Assembly: GCF_000196895.1 (NCBI RefSeq)
Contig: NC_014297.1
Span: forward strand, 186,001 to 250,000
From: Halalkalicoccus jeotgali B3
GTDB lineage: Archaea > Halobacteriota > Halobacteria > Halobacteriales > Halalkalicoccaceae
Length of the DNA: 64,000 nucleotides
Direction: 5' to 3'
Each line of letters opens with the position of its first letter. The first letter of the stretch is position 1. The position numbers were made by a program, and so were the translations under genes. A model generated the notes under the pieces. The model had not been told where the DNA came from, made no database searches, and saw only the letters and a list, made by a program, of their open reading frames with translations. Shown here piece after piece: positions 12,817-21,844 of this stretch.

Positions 12817-13722
12817 TCACTCCTCGAGCAGCCACGACAACAGTCCCTTCTGGGCGTGGAGCCTGTTTTCGGCCTGCTCGAAGACCAGCGAGCGCTCGCC
12901 TTCGACGACCTCGTCGGTGATCTCCTCGCCACGGTGGGCCGGCAGGCAGTGCATCACGCGGGCGTCGGTGTCCGCGAGCAAGTCCTCGTTAACCTGAAAC
13001 CCCTCGAACGCCGCCAAGCGGTAATCGCGCTGGTCCTCCTGGCCCATACTGATCCAGACGTCGGTGTAGACGACGTCAGCGCCCGCAACCGCCTCGGCAG
13101 GGTCGTCGGTGACGGTCGGTACCGCCCCGAACGAGTCGGCCCGTTCGACGTGATCGGCGTCGAGGGCGTACTCCGGGGGCGTCGCGACGGTCAGATCGAC
13201 GCCCGCGATCGCACAGCCTAGCGCGAACGAGCGTGCGACGTTATTCGCGTCACCGACCCACGCCACCGACGTCCCTTCGAGTTCGCCGACCGCCTCCCGA
13301 ATCGTCAGCAGGTCCGCGAGCGTTTGGCAGGGGTGGGCGTCGTCGGTCAGGCCGTTGATTACGGGGACGGTCGCGTAGCGCGCCAGCTCCTCGATGTTTG
13401 CGTGCTCGAAGACACGGGCCATGATCGCATCGACGTAGCCCGACAGCGCCCGCGCGGTGTCCTTCAGTGGCTCGCCGTGACCCAGTTGGATGTCGCGCTC
13501 GCCGAGGAAGACGGCGTGCCCGCCCAGCTGGGTCATTCCCGTCTCGAAGGACACCCGGGTGCGGGTGCTCGGCTTTTGAAAGAGCATTCCCAACGTCTGG
13601 CGTTCGAGGTCAGGGTGCGAGACCCCTTCGTGCTGTTTTTCCTTGTACGCTACCGCACGATCGAGCACCTCCTCTAGCTCCTCGGCGCTCAGGTCGTCGA
13701 TATCGATGAAGTGTCGTGTCAT
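12817..13722 (-). CDS. argF: Ornithine carbamoyltransferase
   Basis: A 301-residue enzyme that converts ornithine and carbamoyl phosphate to citrulline. The carbamoyl-phosphate motif STRTR is at residues 52-56, with HPCQTLAD and HCLPAHRGEEI, the ornithine-binding signature with its catalytic Cys. The length is normal for the family. The frame is open far upstream, but ATG 13722 is chosen because it overlaps the argE stop (ATGA) and starts the conserved N-terminus. It is the last gene of the arginine cluster and is convergent with the small membrane protein at 12326. Confidence 0.95.
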   Translation of the reverse strand: MTRHFIDIDDLSAEELEEVLDRAVAYKEKQHEGVSHPDLERQTLGMLFQKPSTRTRVSFETGMTQLGGHAVFLGERDIQLGHGEPLKDTARALSGYVDAIMARVFEHANIEELARYATVPVINGLTDDAHPCQTLADLLTIREAVGELEGTSVAWVGDANNVARSFALGCAIAGVDLTVATPPEYALDADHVERADSFGAVPTVTDDPAEAVAGADVVYTDVWISMGQEDQRDYRLAAFEGFQVNEDLLADTDARVMHCLPAHRGEEITDEVVEGERSLVFEQAENRLHAQKGLLSWLLEE

Positions 13723-14810
13723 AGGCGGTCTGCTACCTCCGTCAGTACCGCGATCGAGCGGTCGTACTCGGACAGATCGAGGCGTTCGTCGGGTGCGTGA
13801 TCCAGATCCGAGTCGCCGGGGCCGTAGGTCACCATCGGGCAGTCCCAGGCCGAGGCGTAGATGTTCATGTCGCTGGTGCCGGTCTTGCGCAGCAGGCGTG
13901 GATCCCCGTCCTCGCCCCGGATGGCGACCCGAAAGGCACGCGCGAGTTCGGTTCGGGGGCTCTCCATCACCGGCGGGATGGGCTTGCTCCAGTTGACGGT
14001 GCCCGCGGCGTCCGTGTCCGTCCGGAGTTCGCCCTCGGCGATCTCGCGGACCTCCCCGGTCGTCATCGACGGGGGAACCCGGAACTGACCGTCGAGCGTC
14101 GCCGAAACCGAGAGCCCGTCCTCGTCGGTGCCGCCCTCGATCGAGACCGGCTTGGTCGTCACGCGCTCGAAGACGGGGCCCCACTCTTCGTCCTCGCTCG
14201 GCGAGAAACGCTCCTCGATACGGCCCCACCAGCCGATTGCGTGCTGGATCGCGTTTGGCTCGGGCCGGGAGGTATGACCCGACTCGCTGGTCGCGACGTA
14301 GGTGCCCGCGAGCATCCCTCGATAGCCAAGCGTGATGCCGTCCCACCCGCTCGGCTCGCCGTTGATCAGCGCGTCCGGTGGCTCCCTGTCCTGTAACAGG
14401 TACCACGCGCCCCGCGAGTCGGTCTCCTCGCCGACGACGCCGGCGAAGCTGGTTCCAGAGTCGACGGCGGCGACCGCCATCGCACACAGCGGGCCGGTCG
14501 CGTCGACGCTGCCCCGCCCCCAGAGCACTTCAGCGGTTTCACCGCTTCCGTCTCGTTGCCCCTCCGGCGCAACGCCCTCCTCCGTCCGGACGGGGATGTC
14601 GCCCGGGACCGTATCGATGTGGGAGGTGAGCAGCACGCGGTCGTCCGCGGGGGCGCGAACGTTGCCGACCGCGTCGATCCGCGCCTCGCGGTCGTGAGCC
14701 TCGAAGAAGTCAACTAACCGCTCGGCGGCCGCCCGCTCCTCGCCCGAGGGCGAGGGTGTCGAAACCATCCCGATCAGCAGGTCGCGCGCCGAGTCGCTCG
14801 AAACGCTCAT
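13719..14810 (-). CDS. argE/lysK: LysW-ornithine hydrolase (M20 family deacylase)
   Basis: A 363-residue M20-family metallopeptidase. In the LysW pathway it releases ornithine from the carrier protein, in place of a classical acetylornithine deacetylase. Metal-ligand regions are visible: LLTSHIDTVPGD, GRGSVDATGPL, VGEETDSRGAW (catalytic and bridging glutamates) and a C-terminal KTGTSDMNIY. The surroundings (argX, lysW, argB of the carrier type) decide for the LysK/ArgE assignment. It overlaps argF by four bases and is separated from argD by one base, so it is translated in a tightly coupled operon. Confidence 0.92.
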   Translation of the reverse strand: MSVSSDSARDLLIGMVSTPSPSGEERAAAERLVDFFEAHDREARIDAVGNVRAPADDRVLLTSHIDTVPGDIPVRTEEGVAPEGQRDGSGETAEVLWGRGSVDATGPLCAMAVAAVDSGTSFAGVVGEETDSRGAWYLLQDREPPDALINGEPSGWDGITLGYRGMLAGTYVATSESGHTSRPEPNAIQHAIGWWGRIEERFSPSEDEEWGPVFERVTTKPVSIEGGTDEDGLSVSATLDGQFRVPPSMTTGEVREIAEGELRTDTDAAGTVNWSKPIPPVMESPRTELARAFRVAIRGEDGDPRLLRKTGTSDMNIYASAWDCPMVTYGPGDSDLDHAPDERLDLSEYDRSIAVLTEVADRL

Positions 14811-14811
14811 C

Positions 14812-15951
14812 TCACGACTCCGTACTCGCGCTCATCGTTTCGGCGAGCGCCCCGACGACGCTCTCGACGTGCTCCTCGTCGATGACGAGCGGCGGGAGGA
14901 GTCTGAGAACCGACCGACCGGCCGGCAGCGCGAGCACCTGGTGGTTCAACGCGAGATCCCGCAGGAGGCGATTGGAGCCCCGCTTGACCTCGATACCGGT
15001 CATCAGCCCGCGCCCGCGGACGTCGCGGATCGGCAGGTCGGCGGCCTCGATTTCCTCGTGAAGGTACTCGCCCATCTCGGCGGCATGAGTGGGGACGTCC
15101 TCCTCGACGAGGACGTCGAGGGTCGCCGCGGCGGCCGCACAGACCACGGGGTTCCCGCTGAACGTCGAGCCGTGCGGGCCGGCGTCCTCGGCGATCCAGT
15201 CCTTACAGAGGGTCGCGCCCAGTGGCAGGCCACTCGCGAGGCCCTTCGCGCTCGTCAGGATGTCGGGGGTAACGCCCTCGCCCTCGCACGCCCAGAACTC
15301 GCCGGTGCGCCCGAGCCCGGTCTGGATCTCGTCGAAGACCAACGCCGCGCCCGTCTCGTCGCAGGTCTCGCGGGCGGCCTGTAGATACCCCTCGGGTGCG
15401 GCGTTGATCCCGCCCTCACCCTGGATGGGTTCGACGATCACCGCGGCGGTCTCCTCGTCGACGGCCTCCGCGAGCGCTTCGCCGTCGCCGTAGGGCACCG
15501 TCTCGAAGCCCGCCGCCAGCGGCTCGAACGGTTTTTTGTACTTCTGTTTCCAGGTCGCCGCGAGCGAGCCCATCGTCCGGCCGTGAAACGCGCGCTGGGT
15601 GGCGACGATCTTCTTCCGTCCCGTGGCGCTGCGGGCGAATTTCAACGCCGCCTCGTTGGCCTCGGTGCCCGAGTTACAGAGCCAGACGTTCTCGATGTCG
15701 CCGGGCGCCACGCTCGCCAGCTTCGAGTAGCAGGCGTCGCGTGCGTCGTTGGGATACGACGCCTGAACGAACATCAGCTCCTCCAGTTGGTCCTTTGCGG
15801 CCGAAACCACCTCGGGATGGCAGTGGCCGACCGGCGTGACCGCGTAGCTCGCGCCGAAATCGAGGTATTCGGTCCCCGAGTCGTCGTAGAGGTACGTTCC
15901 CTCGCCGCGTTCGATTCTGATCGGCTTCTCGGAGAAGACGAACCCGCTCAT
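14812..15951 (-). CDS. argD: LysW-glutamate semialdehyde (acetylornithine-type) aminotransferase
   Basis: A 379-residue class III PLP aminotransferase. The PLP lysine is in LTSAKGLASGLPLGA, preceded by the Asp of LVFDEIQTGLGRTGEF; the N-terminal YLDFGASYAVTPVGHCHP is characteristic of the ArgD/LysJ group. It would transaminate the carrier-bound glutamate semialdehyde to carrier-bound ornithine. It overlaps argB by four bases and lies one base from argE. Length is normal. As in other LysW systems, dual activity in lysine synthesis is possible, but no lysine-specific genes accompany it here. Confidence 0.94.
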   Translation of the reverse strand: MSGFVFSEKPIRIERGEGTYLYDDSGTEYLDFGASYAVTPVGHCHPEVVSAAKDQLEELMFVQASYPNDARDACYSKLASVAPGDIENVWLCNSGTEANEAALKFARSATGRKKIVATQRAFHGRTMGSLAATWKQKYKKPFEPLAAGFETVPYGDGEALAEAVDEETAAVIVEPIQGEGGINAAPEGYLQAARETCDETGAALVFDEIQTGLGRTGEFWACEGEGVTPDILTSAKGLASGLPLGATLCKDWIAEDAGPHGSTFSGNPVVCAAAAATLDVLVEEDVPTHAAEMGEYLHEEIEAADLPIRDVRGRGLMTGIEVKRGSNRLLRDLALNHQVLALPAGRSVLRLLPPLVIDEEHVESVVGALAETMSASTES

Positions 15952-16781
15952 TCGTCCGCACCTCCGAGCGCGCCGGGAGTAAAGCGTGTTCCATGTCCGT
16001 CGAGCGCGGCCAGAATGGGGTCGTTGAAGTTCGCATCCGAGACGATCACCTCGCTGGCGCCGCCGTCGAGCGCTTCGGTCGCGGCCATCACCTTCTTGGT
16101 CATGAATCCTTCGGCGGCCGCCTCGACGCGCTCCATCTGTGCGGGCGTCTCGGCGCTCTCGATCAGCGTCTCGGGGTCCTCGGGGTCCTCGTAGACGCCC
16201 GCGACGTCCGTCAGCACGACGAGCGACGCGCCGAGCGCGCCGGCCACGGCCGCAGCCGCCCGGTCCGCATCGGCGTTTACGGGGGTCCCGTCCTCGGCGA
16301 GCATCGGAACGCTCACGACGGGCGTATAGCCCGATTCGAGCAGCTCTTTGAGGAGCTCGCTGTTGACCGACTCGATCCTCCCCGAGTGATCGCCGCGCTT
16401 GATCTTCTTCCTGCCGTCCTCGATCACTCTGACCGCGGACTTGCGCGCCCCGGTCAGCAGGCCGCCATCGACACCCGAGAGCCCGAGCGCGTTGACGCCC
16501 TCGTTTCTCAGCGCCGCCGTCAGGTCGGTGTTGACCTGCCCGGCCATCGCCATCGTAAACGCCTCCATCGTCTCCGCGTCGGTAAAGCGGCCCGTGACGC
16601 CGCCCGGCGTGGTGACGTATTCGGGCTCGGTCCCGAGATCGGCAAGCAGCTCGTCGACCGCGGTCGAGCCGCCGTGGACCACGACGACCCGCTCGCCGTT
16701 GGCCGTCAGGTGTGCGATGTCCGCCAGCGCGCCTTCGGGCTCGACGGCGCGGGCGCCGCCGATCTTGACGACGATAACCAT
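15948..16781 (-). CDS. argB: LysW-glutamate kinase
   Basis: A 277-residue amino-acid kinase family protein that phosphorylates the gamma-carboxylate of the glutamate attached to LysW. The N-terminal VVKIGGARAVEP and VVVVHGGSTAVDELL are the phosphate-binding loops, and the core ends with a segment rich in Asp (VLTDVAGVYEDPEDPETL) as in this family. It overlaps argC by one base (TAATG) and argD by four. It lacks the N-terminal regulatory helix typical of arginine-inhibited bacterial NAGKs, so feedback control through that helix is not expected. Confidence 0.94.
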   Translation of the reverse strand: MVIVVKIGGARAVEPEGALADIAHLTANGERVVVVHGGSTAVDELLADLGTEPEYVTTPGGVTGRFTDAETMEAFTMAMAGQVNTDLTAALRNEGVNALGLSGVDGGLLTGARKSAVRVIEDGRKKIKRGDHSGRIESVNSELLKELLESGYTPVVSVPMLAEDGTPVNADADRAAAAVAGALGASLVVLTDVAGVYEDPEDPETLIESAETPAQMERVEAAAEGFMTKKVMAATEALDGGASEVIVSDANFNDPILAALDGHGTRFTPGALGGADE

Positions 16782-17848
16782 TAGGGAGCCCCCACGGGAT
16801 GCAGGCCCTGGAACTCCAACCCGGCCGTCTCCTCCAGTCCGAGCGCGACGTTCGCGGCGTGGACCGCCTGGCCCGCCGACCCTTTCATCATGTTGTCGAT
16901 CGCCGAGAAGACGACGATTCGCTTGTTGGCCGGATCGAGCTCGAAGCCCACGTCGCCGTAGTTCGTGCCGGCGACGGCCTTGGGTTCGGGGTAGCGATAG
17001 ACGCCACCGCCGCCGGAGGCGATCCGCATGAACGGCTCCTCGGCGTAGCTGTCGCGATACGCGCCCCAGAGATCCTTTTTCGAGACCGGCCCGTTCGGAA
17101 AGACGTGACAGGTCGCGCTGGCACCGCGGATCATATCGACCGCGTGAACGGTGAACGACACCGAGATCCCGAACTCCTGTTCGATCTCCGCCTCGTGGCG
17201 GTGGCTCGTCGGCGCGTAGGGCCGGACGATCCCCGAGCGCTCGGGGTGCGAGGAGGCCGCGCCGCCGCCGGCACCCCCCTCCGAGGAGCCGACTTTCACG
17301 TCGACGACGATCTGCTCGTCGCCCGAAAGCAGCTCCGAATCGAACAGCGGGCCCAGTCCGAGGATCGTCGCGGTGGCGTTACAGCCCCCCGAGGCGATCA
17401 GGTCAGCGCCGGGTAGTTCCTCACGATAGCGTTCTGGCAGCGCATACACCGACTTCTCGAGGTACTCGGACGCACTGTGCCCGTCGTACCACTGCTCGTA
17501 CTGTTCTTTGGTGTTCAACCGGAAATCAGCCGAGAGGTCGACGACCGTATCGGCGGCGTCCTCGAAGGCGTCGATGCGCTCCATCGACACGCCGTGGGGT
17601 GTCGCCGCGAACAGCACGTCCACCGACTCCAGATCGGTGGGATCGGAAAACCGCAGGGTCCGGCCCCGGAGGTTCGGGTGGACCGAGCCGATGGTCTTGT
17701 TCTCCGCCGAGCGGCTCGTCGCCTGTGCGATCTCGAAGTTCGGGTGGCCGTCCAGAAGCCTGAGCAACTCGCCGCCGGTAAAGCCGCTTCCCCCGACGAC
17801 GCTCGCGCTGAGCGGTTCGGTCGAGCCGTTCTCCCCCCCGACCGCCAT
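16781..17848 (-). CDS. argC: LysW-glutamyl-phosphate reductase
   Basis: A 355-residue NADPH-dependent reductase making carrier-bound glutamate semialdehyde. The Rossmann motif SVVGGSGFTGGELLRLL is at residues 15-31 and the catalytic Cys is in IASGGCNATATILGL. The frame is open well upstream, but ATG 17848 is chosen because it gives a standard N-terminus and joins the argX stop as TGATG. The 14-residue Gly/Ser-rich head before the Rossmann fold is slightly longer than usual. It shares one base with both argX and argB. Confidence 0.94.
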   Translation of the reverse strand: MAVGGENGSTEPLSASVVGGSGFTGGELLRLLDGHPNFEIAQATSRSAENKTIGSVHPNLRGRTLRFSDPTDLESVDVLFAATPHGVSMERIDAFEDAADTVVDLSADFRLNTKEQYEQWYDGHSASEYLEKSVYALPERYREELPGADLIASGGCNATATILGLGPLFDSELLSGDEQIVVDVKVGSSEGGAGGGAASSHPERSGIVRPYAPTSHRHEAEIEQEFGISVSFTVHAVDMIRGASATCHVFPNGPVSKKDLWGAYRDSYAEEPFMRIASGGGGVYRYPEPKAVAGTNYGDVGFELDPANKRIVVFSAIDNMMKGSAGQAVHAANVALGLEETAGLEFQGLHPVGAP

Positions 17849-18714
17849 CAAGCGGTCACCTCGGTTTCGGCGGGCACCTGCGCTTCGAGCCAGTCGACGA
17901 CTCTCGCCGGGACGTCGACGTCGACGACCTCGTTGAGCGCCTTGAACTCGACCGTGTGGTTGACCTCGTGGACGGTGTAGCCCTCCTCGGTTTCCATCAG
18001 GTCGATCCCGAGCAGACCACCGCCGACGGCGTCGCTCGCGCGCTCGACGAGATCGAGCGCTTCGGCGTCGGGCTCGAAGACCTCGGTCGTCGCACCCTTC
18101 GCGGCGTTGGTCAGCCAGTGCTCCGAGGCGCGCGCCATCGCGGCGATGGGCTCGCCGTCGACGGCCACCACTCGGATGTCGCGGTCGGGTTTGGCGACGA
18201 ACTCCTGGATGTAGAACACCTTGTGCTCGTAGTGGCCCAAGGTCTCCTTGTGTTCGAGGATCGCCTCGGCGGCCGAGCGCGATTCGAGCTTCGCCATCAG
18301 GCGACCCCACGAACCCATGACGGGTTTGAGGACACAGGGATAGCCGAAGTTCTCGATGCTTTCGAGGGCGGCCTCGGTCGTGAAGGCCACGTCCGTATCG
18401 GGTGTCGGCACGCCCGCGCTCGCGAGCGCGAGGCTGTTTTTCACCTTGTCCGCACAGGTCTCTGCGGTGTCGGGCCCGTTGACCACGGGGATCCCGTAGG
18501 CCTCACAGAAGCGCGTGACGTAGAGGCTCCGGCTCGTCGAGAGACACCGGTCGAGCACGACGTCGACGCCCTCGAAGATTTCGGGGGGATTGTGGACGTT
18601 GAACTGGTGTTTTCGCACGTCGATCTTGGTGATCTCGTGGTCGCGCTCGCGAAGCTCGTTCAGAAGGAGCTTCTCGTCTCTGCGGATCCGGGAGTAAAGG
18701 ATGCCTACGTTCAT
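17848..18714 (-). CDS. argX: LysW-glutamate ligase, ATP-grasp (ArgX/LysX)
   Basis: A 288-residue ATP-grasp ligase that joins the amino group of glutamate to the C-terminal glutamate of LysW, starting the carrier-bound arginine route. Visible ATP-grasp features are the Lys-containing VLKPVMGSWGRLMAKL, VFYIQEFVAKPDRDIRVV, and the metal-binding end GIDLMETEEGYTVHEVNHTV. Because no alpha-aminoadipate pathway genes are present, the substrate is inferred to be glutamate (ArgX) rather than aminoadipate (LysX). It is preceded by lysW with a 95-base gap and followed by argC with a one-base overlap. Confidence 0.93.
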   Translation of the reverse strand: MNVGILYSRIRRDEKLLLNELRERDHEITKIDVRKHQFNVHNPPEIFEGVDVVLDRCLSTSRSLYVTRFCEAYGIPVVNGPDTAETCADKVKNSLALASAGVPTPDTDVAFTTEAALESIENFGYPCVLKPVMGSWGRLMAKLESRSAAEAILEHKETLGHYEHKVFYIQEFVAKPDRDIRVVAVDGEPIAAMARASEHWLTNAAKGATTEVFEPDAEALDLVERASDAVGGGLLGIDLMETEEGYTVHEVNHTVEFKALNEVVDVDVPARVVDWLEAQVPAETEVTA

Positions 18715-18809: not shown

Positions 18810-18995
18810 TCACTCGCCCCAGTCTTCCTCGAGCTCGGGCGCTTCCTCGAGCTCGACGGGATCCGTCGAGACGACCTCGAGCTCCGCGCCGCTGACGGGG
18901 CTGTCGATGATCTCGCCGACTTCGACGTCGGCCGGTACCTCGATCTCGTCGCCGGTCAGGGGGTCCTCCGCCGTGATGGTGCTGTCGTCTGCCAT
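18810..18995 (-). CDS. lysW: Amino-group carrier protein LysW, cysteine-less variant
   Basis: A 61-residue acidic carrier whose C-terminus ends in the diagnostic EEDWGE, the glutamate to which substrates are attached. Known LysW proteins fold around one zinc held by two CPxCG-type knuckles. Here the aligned positions are D11-P-L-T14-G and S32-P-V-S35-G, and no cysteine occurs anywhere in the protein. The surrounding framework (EIEVPADVEVGEI, GAELEVVSTDP) is retained. The ATG at 18995 is chosen over an upstream in-frame start at 19022 because it fits the family length and the TATA spacing. Gene context makes the identity secure despite the missing zinc ligands. Confidence 0.9.
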   Translation of the reverse strand: MADDSTITAEDPLTGDEIEVPADVEVGEIIDSPVSGAELEVVSTDPVELEEAPELEEDWGE

Positions 18996-19159: not shown

Positions 19160-20608
19160 TCACTCATACGAACGCACCTCCTCGTCTAGTGCCGTGGCGG
19201 CGGCCCCGAGCGCCTCGGCGAGGTCGTCGACTGCTCGCTCGTCGGCGCCGATCCCGTCCCAGGCCGCCGCCAGCGTCTCCTCGACCGCCTCGGGTGCGGG
19301 CCCGCCTTGCGAGTCCCGGCTCGCGACGCTCGCTTCGGGGTCGAGCGCCGCCTCGACCGCCTCGCGGGGGACGTACTCGGCGAGGGGATCGCCGAGGACT
19401 GCCTCGCTCGCCGCATCGAGCGCCGCGTAGTCGCTGGCGTCCTCCGAAGCGAGCGCTACCAGTTCGTGAGCAGTCCGGAAGGGCAACCCGGCCATCGCGA
19501 GCGCGTCCGCGACGCCCGTCGCGGTCGAGAACCCCTCGCCTGCGGCCGCCTCCAACTGGTGTTCGTTCCACTCGGCGGTCGCGACCGCGCCGGCCGCGAC
19601 GTCTGTCGCCTCGCGCACGGCGTCGACCGTCTCCCAGGCGTGGGGCGTCGCGCGCTGGAGGTCACGGTTGTACGCTCTCGGCAGTCCTTTGAGCGTCGTC
19701 AGGAGGCCGTTCAGCCCCGAAGAGGCGTCGCCCGCCGTGGCGCGAACCAGCTCCAGGGTATCGGGGTTCTTCTTCTGGGGCATGATCGAGGACGTCGAGG
19801 AGTACTCGTCCGAGAGTTCGACATAGCCCTTGTTCGAAAAGAGGATCAGGTCTTCGGCCATTCCGGAGAGCGTCGTCGACAGCGTCGCGAGCGCGCTCAC
19901 CGTTTCGAGCAGGAAGTCCCGCGTCGAGGAGGCGTCCATCGAGTTTTCGAGCACGGACTCGAAGCCCAGCAGCTCCGCGGTTCGCTCGCGGTCGATATCG
20001 AAGGGCGTGCCCGCGAAGGCCGCCGCCCCCAGCGGGCAGCGGTTCGTTCTGCTATAAGCGTCGAGCAGGCGTTCGGTGTCGCGCGCCACCGCTCCCTCGT
20101 ACGAGAGCAGCCAGTGAGCCACGGTGGTCGGCTGGGCCGGCTGGAGGTGGGTGTAGCCGGGCAACAGCGTTTCAGTCTGCCCCTCGGCGGCCCCGACGAG
20201 TGCCTCGCGGAAGGCAACCGTCGCTTCCAGGACCTCCAGGAGGTCCTCGCGCAGTCGGTGGCGGATGCAGGTCGCGACCTCGTCGTTGCGCGAGCGGGCG
20301 GTGTGCATCTTCCCGCCGACCGGTCCGATGGAGTCGATCACCGCCGTCTCGATGGCGGCGTGGACGTCCTCGCCGTCGGGCAGCGCGTCGTGGCCCGTGG
20401 CCTCCACCTCCGAAAGCGTCGCGAGGATCTCGCCGGCCTCCTCCTCGGGAACGATCCCCTGTTCTGCGAGCATCACGACGTGTGCGCGATCCACCGCGAG
20501 GTCGGCTTCGAAGATCCGTTCGTCGGCCGCCATCGAGGAGAGGAATCCGCGAGCGGGCCCACCACTGAACCGCTCGCGGCGCACCACGTCCCCGGACTCC
20601 CCGCTCAT
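19160..20608 (-). CDS. argH: Argininosuccinate lyase
   Basis: A 482-residue member of the fumarase/aspartase superfamily that cleaves argininosuccinate to arginine and fumarate. The family signature SSIMPQKKNPDTLEL, with its catalytic Ser in the preceding loop, is clear, as are TARSRNDEVATCIR and GYTHLQPAQPTTVAHWLLSY. Length is normal. It abuts argG directly, with the argG stop codon followed immediately by the argH ATG, so the last two arginine steps are co-expressed. Confidence 0.95.
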   Translation of the reverse strand: MSGESGDVVRRERFSGGPARGFLSSMAADERIFEADLAVDRAHVVMLAEQGIVPEEEAGEILATLSEVEATGHDALPDGEDVHAAIETAVIDSIGPVGGKMHTARSRNDEVATCIRHRLREDLLEVLEATVAFREALVGAAEGQTETLLPGYTHLQPAQPTTVAHWLLSYEGAVARDTERLLDAYSRTNRCPLGAAAFAGTPFDIDRERTAELLGFESVLENSMDASSTRDFLLETVSALATLSTTLSGMAEDLILFSNKGYVELSDEYSSTSSIMPQKKNPDTLELVRATAGDASSGLNGLLTTLKGLPRAYNRDLQRATPHAWETVDAVREATDVAAGAVATAEWNEHQLEAAAGEGFSTATGVADALAMAGLPFRTAHELVALASEDASDYAALDAASEAVLGDPLAEYVPREAVEAALDPEASVASRDSQGGPAPEAVEETLAAAWDGIGADERAVDDLAEALGAAATALDEEVRSYE

Positions 20609-21844
20609 CTACTGCTCACCCTCGCTCGCGTCCCCGCCGTCGGTCACTGCGGGCGTGCGCTCGCCGACGTCGGCCTCGACGGCGTTCGCGAGGCGCTCTT
20701 GCAGGCCGTGATACTTCGCGACGCCGGTGGCGTCCTCCTGGGCGATCCCGTCGACGGTCTCGGTGTTGAACGACGCCGCGCTCGCCGAGTAGACCGCGAA
20801 CTCGCTGTCCCTGCCTACGGGACGGGCTTTTCCGCCCTCGAGCTTGATCGTCACCGTGCCCGTCACCTTTGTCTGGGTCTCGTCGATGAAGCCGTTCAGC
20901 GCCTCCACGAGTGGTGCGAACAGCAGCCCCTCGTAGGCCTTCTCGGACCACTCGTGGTCGACGCCGACCTTGAACGACCGCTCGCCCTTCGTCAGGACGA
21001 GGTCCTCGAGCGCCCGGTGGGCGTTGAGCAACACGCTCGCCGCGGGGTGCTCGTAGTTCTCGCGGACTTTGAGCCCGAGCATGCGGTCCTCCATCAGGTC
21101 GGTCCGGCCGACGCCGTGGGCGCCCGCGAGTTCGTTCAGGTGCTCGATCAACTCGACGCCGTCCATCGCCTCGCCGTCGACCGCGACGGGAACCCCTTCG
21201 TCGAACTCGATCTCGATCTGCTCGGTTTCATCGGTTGGCTCGGCGGTCCAGTCGTAGATCTCTTCGGGGGGTACGTAGCTCGGCTCTTCCAACTGACCGC
21301 CCTCGACCGAGCGACTCCAGAGGTTCGTGTCGATCGACCAGACGCCGTCATTCCCTGCCTCGACGGGGAGGTCCTTCTCGTCGGCGTACTCGATCTCCCA
21401 TTCCCGAGTGAGCCCGAGTTCGCGCACGGGCGCGATGACCTCCATGTCCGAGCCGCGCCAGACCGCCTCGAAGCGCAATTGGTCGTTGCCCTTGCCCGTA
21501 CAGCCGTGGGCCAGCGCCGAGCAGTCCTGCTCCTCTGCGACTTCCAGAATCGCTTGTGCGATCACCGGGCGGGCAAGCGCGGTCCCGAGGGGATAGCCCT
21601 GATAGGTCGCGTTCGCTTTCACGCCGTCGAAGCAGGTCTCCGCGAACTCGGATTTGGCGTCGACGATGTGGTTCTCGAGCCCCAGTGCCTCGGCGGTCTC
21701 TTCGGCCTCCTCGAACTCCTCTTCGGGTTGGCCGACGTCGACGGTCACCCCGATCACTTCGTCGTAGCCGTACTCCTCTTCCAGTAGCGGTACACAGACG
21801 GTCGTATCCAGTCCACCCGAAAACGCGAGTGCCACACGTTCCAT
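20609..21844 (-). CDS. argG: Argininosuccinate synthase
   Basis: A 411-residue N-type ATP pyrophosphatase that condenses citrulline with aspartate. The PP-loop AFSGGLDTTVCVPLL is at the N-terminus, followed by AHGCTGKGNDQLRFE, the citrulline/aspartate-binding region. Length is slightly above the bacterial average because of a C-terminal acidic tail (GDASEGEQ). The start ATG 21844 has a GGAGG at 21861-21865 and a TATA-like AATTTATG at 21873-21880, both on the minus strand. It is the first structural gene of the arginine cluster. Confidence 0.95.
   Translation of the reverse strand: MERVALAFSGGLDTTVCVPLLEEEYGYDEVIGVTVDVGQPEEEFEEAEETAEALGLENHIVDAKSEFAETCFDGVKANATYQGYPLGTALARPVIAQAILEVAEEQDCSALAHGCTGKGNDQLRFEAVWRGSDMEVIAPVRELGLTREWEIEYADEKDLPVEAGNDGVWSIDTNLWSRSVEGGQLEEPSYVPPEEIYDWTAEPTDETEQIEIEFDEGVPVAVDGEAMDGVELIEHLNELAGAHGVGRTDLMEDRMLGLKVRENYEHPAASVLLNAHRALEDLVLTKGERSFKVGVDHEWSEKAYEGLLFAPLVEALNGFIDETQTKVTGTVTIKLEGGKARPVGRDSEFAVYSASAASFNTETVDGIAQEDATGVAKYHGLQERLANAVEADVGERTPAVTDGGDASEGEQ

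Follow-up and report, generated by a model that had tools for sequence, protein, structure and literature searches.

The window analysed here is a 64,000-nucleotide stretch of the Halalkalicoccus jeotgali B3 genome, in which an arginine gene cluster is read from the minus strand in the order argG, argH, lysW, argX, argC, argB, argD, argE and argF, with all frames open. The lysW gene of this cluster encodes a cysteine-free amino-group carrier protein. The features are listed below, with profile scores in bits and the corresponding cut-offs.

12817..13719, minus strand: argF, ornithine carbamoyltransferase (PF00185/PF02729)
13719..14810, minus strand: argE/lysK hydrolase, expected to free ornithine from the carrier (NF003367, 512.9 against 363)
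14812..15951, minus strand: argD/lysJ aminotransferase (TIGR00707, 423.5 against 410.05)
15948..16781, minus strand: argB/lysZ kinase (NF010661, 488.9 against 251)
16781..17848, minus strand: argC/lysY reductase (TIGR01850, 356.2 against 233.6, searched with 16781-17833; an in-frame ATG at 17848 extends the frame)
17848..18714, minus strand: argX/lysX ligase (ATP-grasp), 288 aa, with a GSWGR motif (TIGR02144, 296.6 against 275.6)
18810..18995, minus strand: lysW/argW, cysteine-free amino-group carrier protein, 61 aa, stop included (open reading frame and LysW models)
18813..18830, minus strand: EEDWGE carrier tail, residues 56-61 (sequence)
18888..18902, minus strand: second former zinc knuckle SPVSG, residues 32-36, ligand positions S32 and S35 (alignment)
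18951..18965, minus strand: first former zinc knuckle DPLTG, residues 11-15, ligand positions D11 and T14 (alignment)
18966..18995, minus strand: N-terminal extension, residues 1-10, typical of the cysteine-free type, with residues 6-10 a predicted beta strand (sequence comparison and AF2)
19160..20608, minus strand: argH, argininosuccinate lyase (PF00206/PF14698)
20609..21844, minus strand: argG, argininosuccinate synthase (PF00764/PF20979)

The initial annotation had described, without naming a strand, a 61-residue LysW with an intact EEDWGE end and no cysteine, accompanied by complete argX, argC, argB, argD and argE genes. Both descriptions were confirmed: the lysW frame starts with ATG at 18995 and stops at 18810-18812 on the minus strand, and the five enzyme genes have open frames whose products each score above at least one curated NCBIfam cut-off. 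The carrier sequence, MADDSTITAEDPLTGDEIEVPADVEVGEIIDSPVSGAELEVVSTDPVELEEAPELEEDWGE, contains no cysteine, lysine or arginine, and 22 of its residues are aspartate or glutamate. Its four former ligand positions are encoded by GAC (11), ACC (14), AGC (32) and AGC (35), of which two would need two base changes to become TGC and two would need one. The terminal Glu of the tail is the attachment site in the LysW/ArgW proteins that have been studied (PMC10433800). The protein scores above the cut-offs of TIGR01206 (59.2 against 53.2 bits) and PF21344 (53.1 against 27) and below that of NF041070, the curated archaeal LysW/ArgW model of NCBIfam (51.3 against 75); annotation through NF041070 alone would therefore overlook it, which is a warning for genome annotation in general. 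The closest solved structures by sequence are LysW of Thermococcus kodakarensis (5k2m), Thermus thermophilus (3wwl) and Sulfolobus tokodaii (3vpb). A second, cysteine-containing lysW, which the initial annotation had held open, was sought in the whole of this genome (3,698,650 bases in 7 contigs, 98.58% complete) and none was found, the next-best matches having E values of at least 1.1. The other doubt raised there, a base-call error, was ruled out because the cysteine-free type recurs: it was read in 72 search-set genomes and 78 named records, two sets that overlap. Halalkalicoccus paucihalophilus (L044) has a LysW identical to that of the window.

Across the order, a LysW match was obtained in 384 of 392 sampled genomes, and the scores against the window protein were bimodal, with 69 genomes at 82.5 bits or more and the next best at 63.1 bits. 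All 69 high-scoring genomes were read and all carry a cysteine-free LysW; of the remaining 315 genomes, 160 were read for at least one LysW, and each LysW was of the four-cysteine type, one with a fifth cysteine. Together with three additional Haloferax genomes, 232 genomes were read, comprising 159 with four cysteines, 71 with none, one with both types and one with five cysteines, where for genomes with two copies of the four-cysteine type the second copy was read in only some. No LysW with one to three cysteines occurred among these 232 genomes, which argues against stepwise loss, and 231 of them carry one LysW type only. The exception, G010, has a four-cysteine lysW beside ArgX and a cysteine-free orphan elsewhere; the orphan (L217, 5122-5310) lies amid photolyase-like genes, named by look, and is possibly a spare or differently regulated carrier. 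The counts exclude five weak matches that were not LysW or contained a stop (L002-L005 and L311), as well as G113, where the frame of a four-cysteine lysW (L347) continues past EDWG beyond the usual stop site, perhaps through misassembly, perhaps through a genuine change at the C-terminus. L311 (G381:C1:1097116-1097265) is a weak second LysW-like stretch in Haloferax with a stop codon and a score of 21.8 bits, maybe a remnant. LysW went unmatched in eight of the 392 genomes (G064, G332 and six others); completeness is 90% or more and contamination low in two of these. The eight organisms may be arginine auxotrophs.

Cysteine-free LysW was found in all 15 Haloferax species examined, and the two types alternate inside the genera Natronomonas and Halovenus. 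Among relatives in the GTDB collection, 78 of the 80 kept from 284 were cysteine-free and two had four cysteines; this list was ranked by similarity to the window protein and gives no frequency. The 78 named records belong to Halalkalicoccus, Halorubrum, Haloferax, Halobellus, Halogeometricum, Haloquadratum, Salinigranum, Halovenus and Natronomonas, plus unplaced genomes. A sample of 294 genomes across the phylum yielded 52 matches, all inside the order, and no cysteine-free LysW outside it. ArgX lies on the same DNA piece in 140 of 143 cysteine-free loci, the three others being the G010 orphan (counted twice) and L065 at a contig end. Fourteen four-cysteine lysW loci (L208, L258, L260, L274 and ten of L006-L029), from genera g36, g47 and others, had no ArgX match on the DNA examined, and some of these genomes have two LysW copies. 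For H. volcanii itself, a 61% identity of its argW product HVO_0047 to T. kodakarensis LysW has been reported (PMC8305020). Our computed identities to the same protein are 60-63% for cysteine-free Haloferax LysW and 49-57% for three four-cysteine LysW; together with the genus, this suggests that the H. volcanii carrier is cysteine-free.

An alignment of homologues at positions 11, 14, 32 and 35 shows the same set of replacements recurring across haloarchaea, mostly Asp, Thr/Ser, Ser and Thr/Ser. In 139 cysteine-free loci with ArgX, a count that includes several genomes twice, the four columns read DTST (95), DSST (27), DTSS (12, the set of the window), DAST (2), DTNT (2) and ETST (1). The N-terminus ahead of the first ligand position is eight to eleven residues long in 65 of the 70 unique cysteine-free sequences and three to seven residues long in all 145 unique four-cysteine sequences; the five short N-termini were counted as found, and some may reflect the choice of a later in-frame Met. 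Median dN/dS was 0.078 for the cysteine-free type (3329 pairs) and 0.204 for the four-cysteine type (7588 pairs), estimated by simple counting from pairs with dS of 0.1-1.5 only. The cysteine-free LysW is under strong purifying selection. The share of Asp plus Glu is 34% in the cysteine-free and 32% in the four-cysteine type, so both are about equally acidic and acidity alone cannot tell them apart. This near-equality speaks neither for nor against the suggestion of the initial annotation that acidic-surface and salt effects may hold the fold.

The AF2 model of the cysteine-free type, built from 12 cysteine-free sequences only, has predicted strands at residues 6-10, 17-21, 29-31 and 38-40 and a pLDDT of 83; the four other models of this type reached 68-72, against 83-85 for the four-cysteine control. 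In the four-cysteine control model, with a pLDDT of 86, the two later strands are present, but the first hairpin is replaced by one isolated bridge (residues 3 and 10). The cysteine-free prediction is thus the less stable of the two, which could reflect a less ordered fold. The cysteine-free model was superposed on crystal LysW at 0.9 Å over 38 residues (5k2m_F) and 1.2 Å over 39 (5eio_C), with 3wwl also inside 0.9-1.2 Å over 38-39 residues, and LysW crystal chains ranked ahead of all other chains. VIA Z scores to LysW were 3.6-4.6 (best rows 4.2-4.6), against 3.0 or less for unrelated chains, although the tool rates Z scores of this size as common by chance; Foldseek E values to LysW structures were 0.017-0.34. 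Since the model fits crystal LysW, the protein probably retains the fold, with the extended hairpin 6-10/17-21 as a candidate substitute for the zinc.

The history of the two types was followed through pairwise identities and trees. Over the 47 non-ligand columns, the median LysW identity between types is 58.5-63.8% in every bin of ArgX identity (extremes 44.7-74.5). Where ArgX is 90-95% identical, the LysW core is 59.6-66.0% identical across types (13 pairs), against 83-100% for four-cysteine pairs (60) and 85-100% for cysteine-free pairs (415) in the same bin. Cores of the cysteine-free pairs compared are never less than 72.3% identical, and the level of about 60% between types is, by itself, matched by distant four-cysteine pairs, whose identity goes down to 44.7%. 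The clearest case is a pair of Natronomonas genomes, G147 with four cysteines and G243 with none, which are 93% identical in ArgX, 86% in ArgC and 79% in ArgH, whereas 28 of 51 residues agree in LysW. At the DNA level, the between-type pairs compared are 50-63% identical in the first 120 bases of lysW and 81-95% over most of argX, while two cysteine-free Natronomonas share 85-90% of lysW; upstream, the intergenic stretch of the compared pairs has diverged, which prevents placing the left border of the replaced segment. In the LysW tree, built from the 47 columns without the ligand columns, one change splits the types, and the branch joining the cysteine-free proteins has an SH-aLRT of 64. The types interleave on the ArgX tree (143 representatives, 12 changes, 3 forced by well-supported branches), where a single cysteine-free clade was rejected (p-AU 2.5e-6, 103 rows, after 40 long-branch or near-duplicate ArgX rows had been taken out by hand), and the ArgH, ArgX and ArgC tree has 10 changes, 7 of them forced (79 hand-chosen loci). 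All trees came from a short search. Transfer of lysW together with its enzymes as a whole cluster was rejected, because ArgX, ArgC and ArgH do not track the LysW type. One change in the LysW tree and interleaving in the enzyme trees indicate that the zinc-free lysW most likely had a single origin followed by repeated in-place replacement, and transfer is the most likely route of that replacement.

Two other histories were weighed. In the first, each lineage turned its own four-cysteine LysW cysteine-free, perhaps with the low-cysteine trend of haloarchaea, in which cysteine depletion and degenerate metal sites are documented (PMC5861453; for L43e, PMC8305020). Convergence could account for the four replacements, which resemble one another chemically, and the branch uniting all cysteine-free LysW is weak. 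Repeated loss predicts, however, a LysW otherwise like that of its relatives, and close relatives of different type differ throughout the core; the cysteine-free proteins share the rest of their sequence and mostly the longer N-terminus too, no core outside the knuckles is common to the 46 unique cysteine-free and 141 unique four-cysteine cores, and intermediates are absent from the 232 genomes. Independent loss is thus disfavoured, and we regard it as improbable. The main rival is that zinc and zinc-free paralogues coexisted in the haloarchaeal ancestor and were lost differentially, without transfer. Differential loss would likewise yield incongruent trees, some genomes have two LysW copies, and G010 combines a four-cysteine gene in the arg cluster with a cysteine-free orphan near photolyase-like genes. 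Both types occur, however, in just one of the 232 genomes read, and they alternate inside Natronomonas and Halovenus. Moreover, ArgX adjoins the carrier in nearly all cysteine-free loci, which makes in-place replacement of the zinc form in the arg cluster necessary even with paralogues. This explanation seems rather unlikely to us, yet it is clearly to be taken more seriously than repeated loss.

Function and metal content were considered in the same way. A LysW that has decayed or been repurposed, and no longer works as a carrier, might be suspected because the structural ligands are missing and the NF041070 cut-off is not reached. The low dN/dS, the intact tail, the sole copy in its own genome and the adjoining ArgX all stand against decay, as does the need of on-carrier enzymes for arginine prototrophy in Haloferax (PMC4300041), and we consider it very improbable. 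A different question is whether the site, though cysteine-free, is metal-free. It might bind another metal, or zinc weakly, through Asp11, hydroxyls and nearby carboxylates, since side chains bearing oxygen occupy all four positions in 137 of 139 loci and the other two have a single Ala. Only one of the four positions is acidic, however, and serine and threonine are poor zinc ligands. The TFE-alpha of H. volcanii, with one cysteine left, still gains stability from weakly bound zinc (PMC5861453), so that loss of ligands from a degenerate ribbon need not mean loss of all metal. We give this reading a small but real chance. Somewhat less probable still is a sulphur site for a soft metal turned into an all-oxygen site filled by K+, Na+ or Mg2+, hard cations that abound in a salt-in cytoplasm, giving a salt-dependent carrier that spread by gene exchange among haloarchaea and took the place of the zinc carrier under unchanged enzymes.

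In our assessment, the window LysW is very probably a working ArgW of a zinc-free lineage, whose gene arose once and was swapped in place several times while the enzymes were kept. ArgX would charge the carrier with glutamate at the Glu that ends its EEDWGE tail, ArgB, ArgC and ArgD would act on the carrier-bound glutamate, and ArgE would free ornithine. The LysW fold would form without zinc, which the window protein presumably lacks; the conserved oxygen-bearing Asp, Thr/Ser, Ser and Thr/Ser that replace the cysteines most likely form an internal hydrogen-bond network, and the extended N-terminal strand would pair with the strand after the first knuckle and aid stability. After its origin, the zinc-free gene would have been exchanged for the zinc form in the arg clusters of several haloarchaeal families.

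The carrier cycle is established for relatives. There, ArgX/LysX links glutamate or aminoadipate, through its amino group, to the Glu at the end of the carrier; the on-carrier enzymes then act, and the last enzyme frees the product (PMC10433800). In Natrinema gari, whose ArgW has four cysteines, deletion of argW or replacement of its terminal Glu by Ala causes arginine auxotrophy (PMC10433800). In H. volcanii, transposon insertions in argB, argC (twice) and argD gave arginine auxotrophs (PMC4300041, Table 5), and the on-carrier pathway is thus in use in Haloferax. We found no experiment on, or description of, a cysteine-free LysW in the open-licence literature (supplements lay outside its scope): the argW knock-out found was that of N. 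gari only (PMC10433800), and LysW appears as annotations only in the relevant parts of PMC10694973.

How partner enzymes recognise such a carrier, a question posed by the initial annotation, is partly answered by the finding that very similar ArgX, ArgC and ArgH adjoin either LysW type, the identity of ArgX reaching 93%. ArgX recognises the EDWGE tail through its GSWGR motif (PMC10433800), which is present in all 43 representatives linked to cysteine-free LysW and in 97 of the 100 linked to four-cysteine LysW. Thermus pathway enzymes have basic regions around the active site for the acidic LysW surface, and similar regions are reported for haloarchaeal enzymes with the data not shown there (PMC3402447). 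Neither the account of charging at the terminal Glu nor the statement on basic regions involves the zinc site. Since the enzymes were not exchanged with the carrier, it is probably the tail and the acidic surface that they recognise, not the zinc site, as this natural carrier swap suggests. Residues at ArgX columns 36 and 218 are distributed unequally over the types (67% vs 12%), and the window ArgX is without the typical residues; a search for carrier-linked ArgX residues gave three independent pairs on well-supported branches, too few for significance.

The initial annotation had also raised the possibility of a functional zinc-free carrier, which would be new. The functional part gained from the comparative evidence, as a single copy, an intact arg cluster, purifying selection and a conserved tail point to a working protein; it is no peculiarity of this genome, the type being widespread in haloarchaea, the genus Haloferax included. 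LysW has been described as a zinc protein, and a conserved zinc-free lineage suggests that zinc is dispensable for amino-group carriage. Because cysteine-free LysW seems to be the sole type in Haloferax, the genus of the model H. volcanii, this can be tested in an existing genetic system.

A possible coupling to zinc economy was examined through ribosomal protein L43e. Of 69 genomes searched, 50 were taken by hand and 49 read (G237 was not included). L43e was zinc-free in 19 of 22 genomes with cysteine-free LysW and in 18 of 27 with four-cysteine LysW (Fisher p 0.18), where G010, with both LysW types, was counted as cysteine-free and three cases with cysteines only before the Met were counted as zinc-free. 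The association was not significant. The L43e of the window's own genome (G000:C1:2379417-2379686; L356, L357) is itself without zinc cysteines, and its congeners G040 and G050 (L387, L388) have all four. A zinc finger is said to occur in L43e of all Halobacteriales (PMC8305020); Halalkalicoccus may be an exception to this rule and a further case of exchange between zinc and zinc-free forms.

Compared with known systems, the window LysW resembles the zinc LysW/ArgW of T. thermophilus (3wwl, 3wwn, 5eio), T. kodakarensis (5k2m), S. tokodaii (3vpb) and N. gari in its EDWGE tail, size, predicted fold and gene neighbours, but it has none of their four (or three) zinc-binding cysteines (PMC10433800) and a longer N-terminus. 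Loss of zinc-ribbon cysteines is also known from haloarchaeal L43e and TFE-alpha (PMC8305020; PMC5861453); L43e, however, is ribosomal, and in the TFE-alpha of Haloferax one cysteine and weak zinc binding remain (PMC5861453), whereas the window LysW has no cysteine. The nearest parallel in mode of evolution is bacterial ribosomal protein S4, whose zinc (C+) and zinc-free (C-) versions have been swapped horizontally at a conserved cluster (PMC3087516). LysW fits that pattern in having two sequence classes, with and without ligands, that are incongruent with the neighbouring genes, although S4 is a bacterial ribosomal protein and LysW an archaeal substrate carrier of amino-acid synthesis. LysW adds a metabolic carrier to the zinc/zinc-free exchanges of ribosomal proteins, and with its zinc-free form a familiar evolutionary pattern extends to a new protein class.
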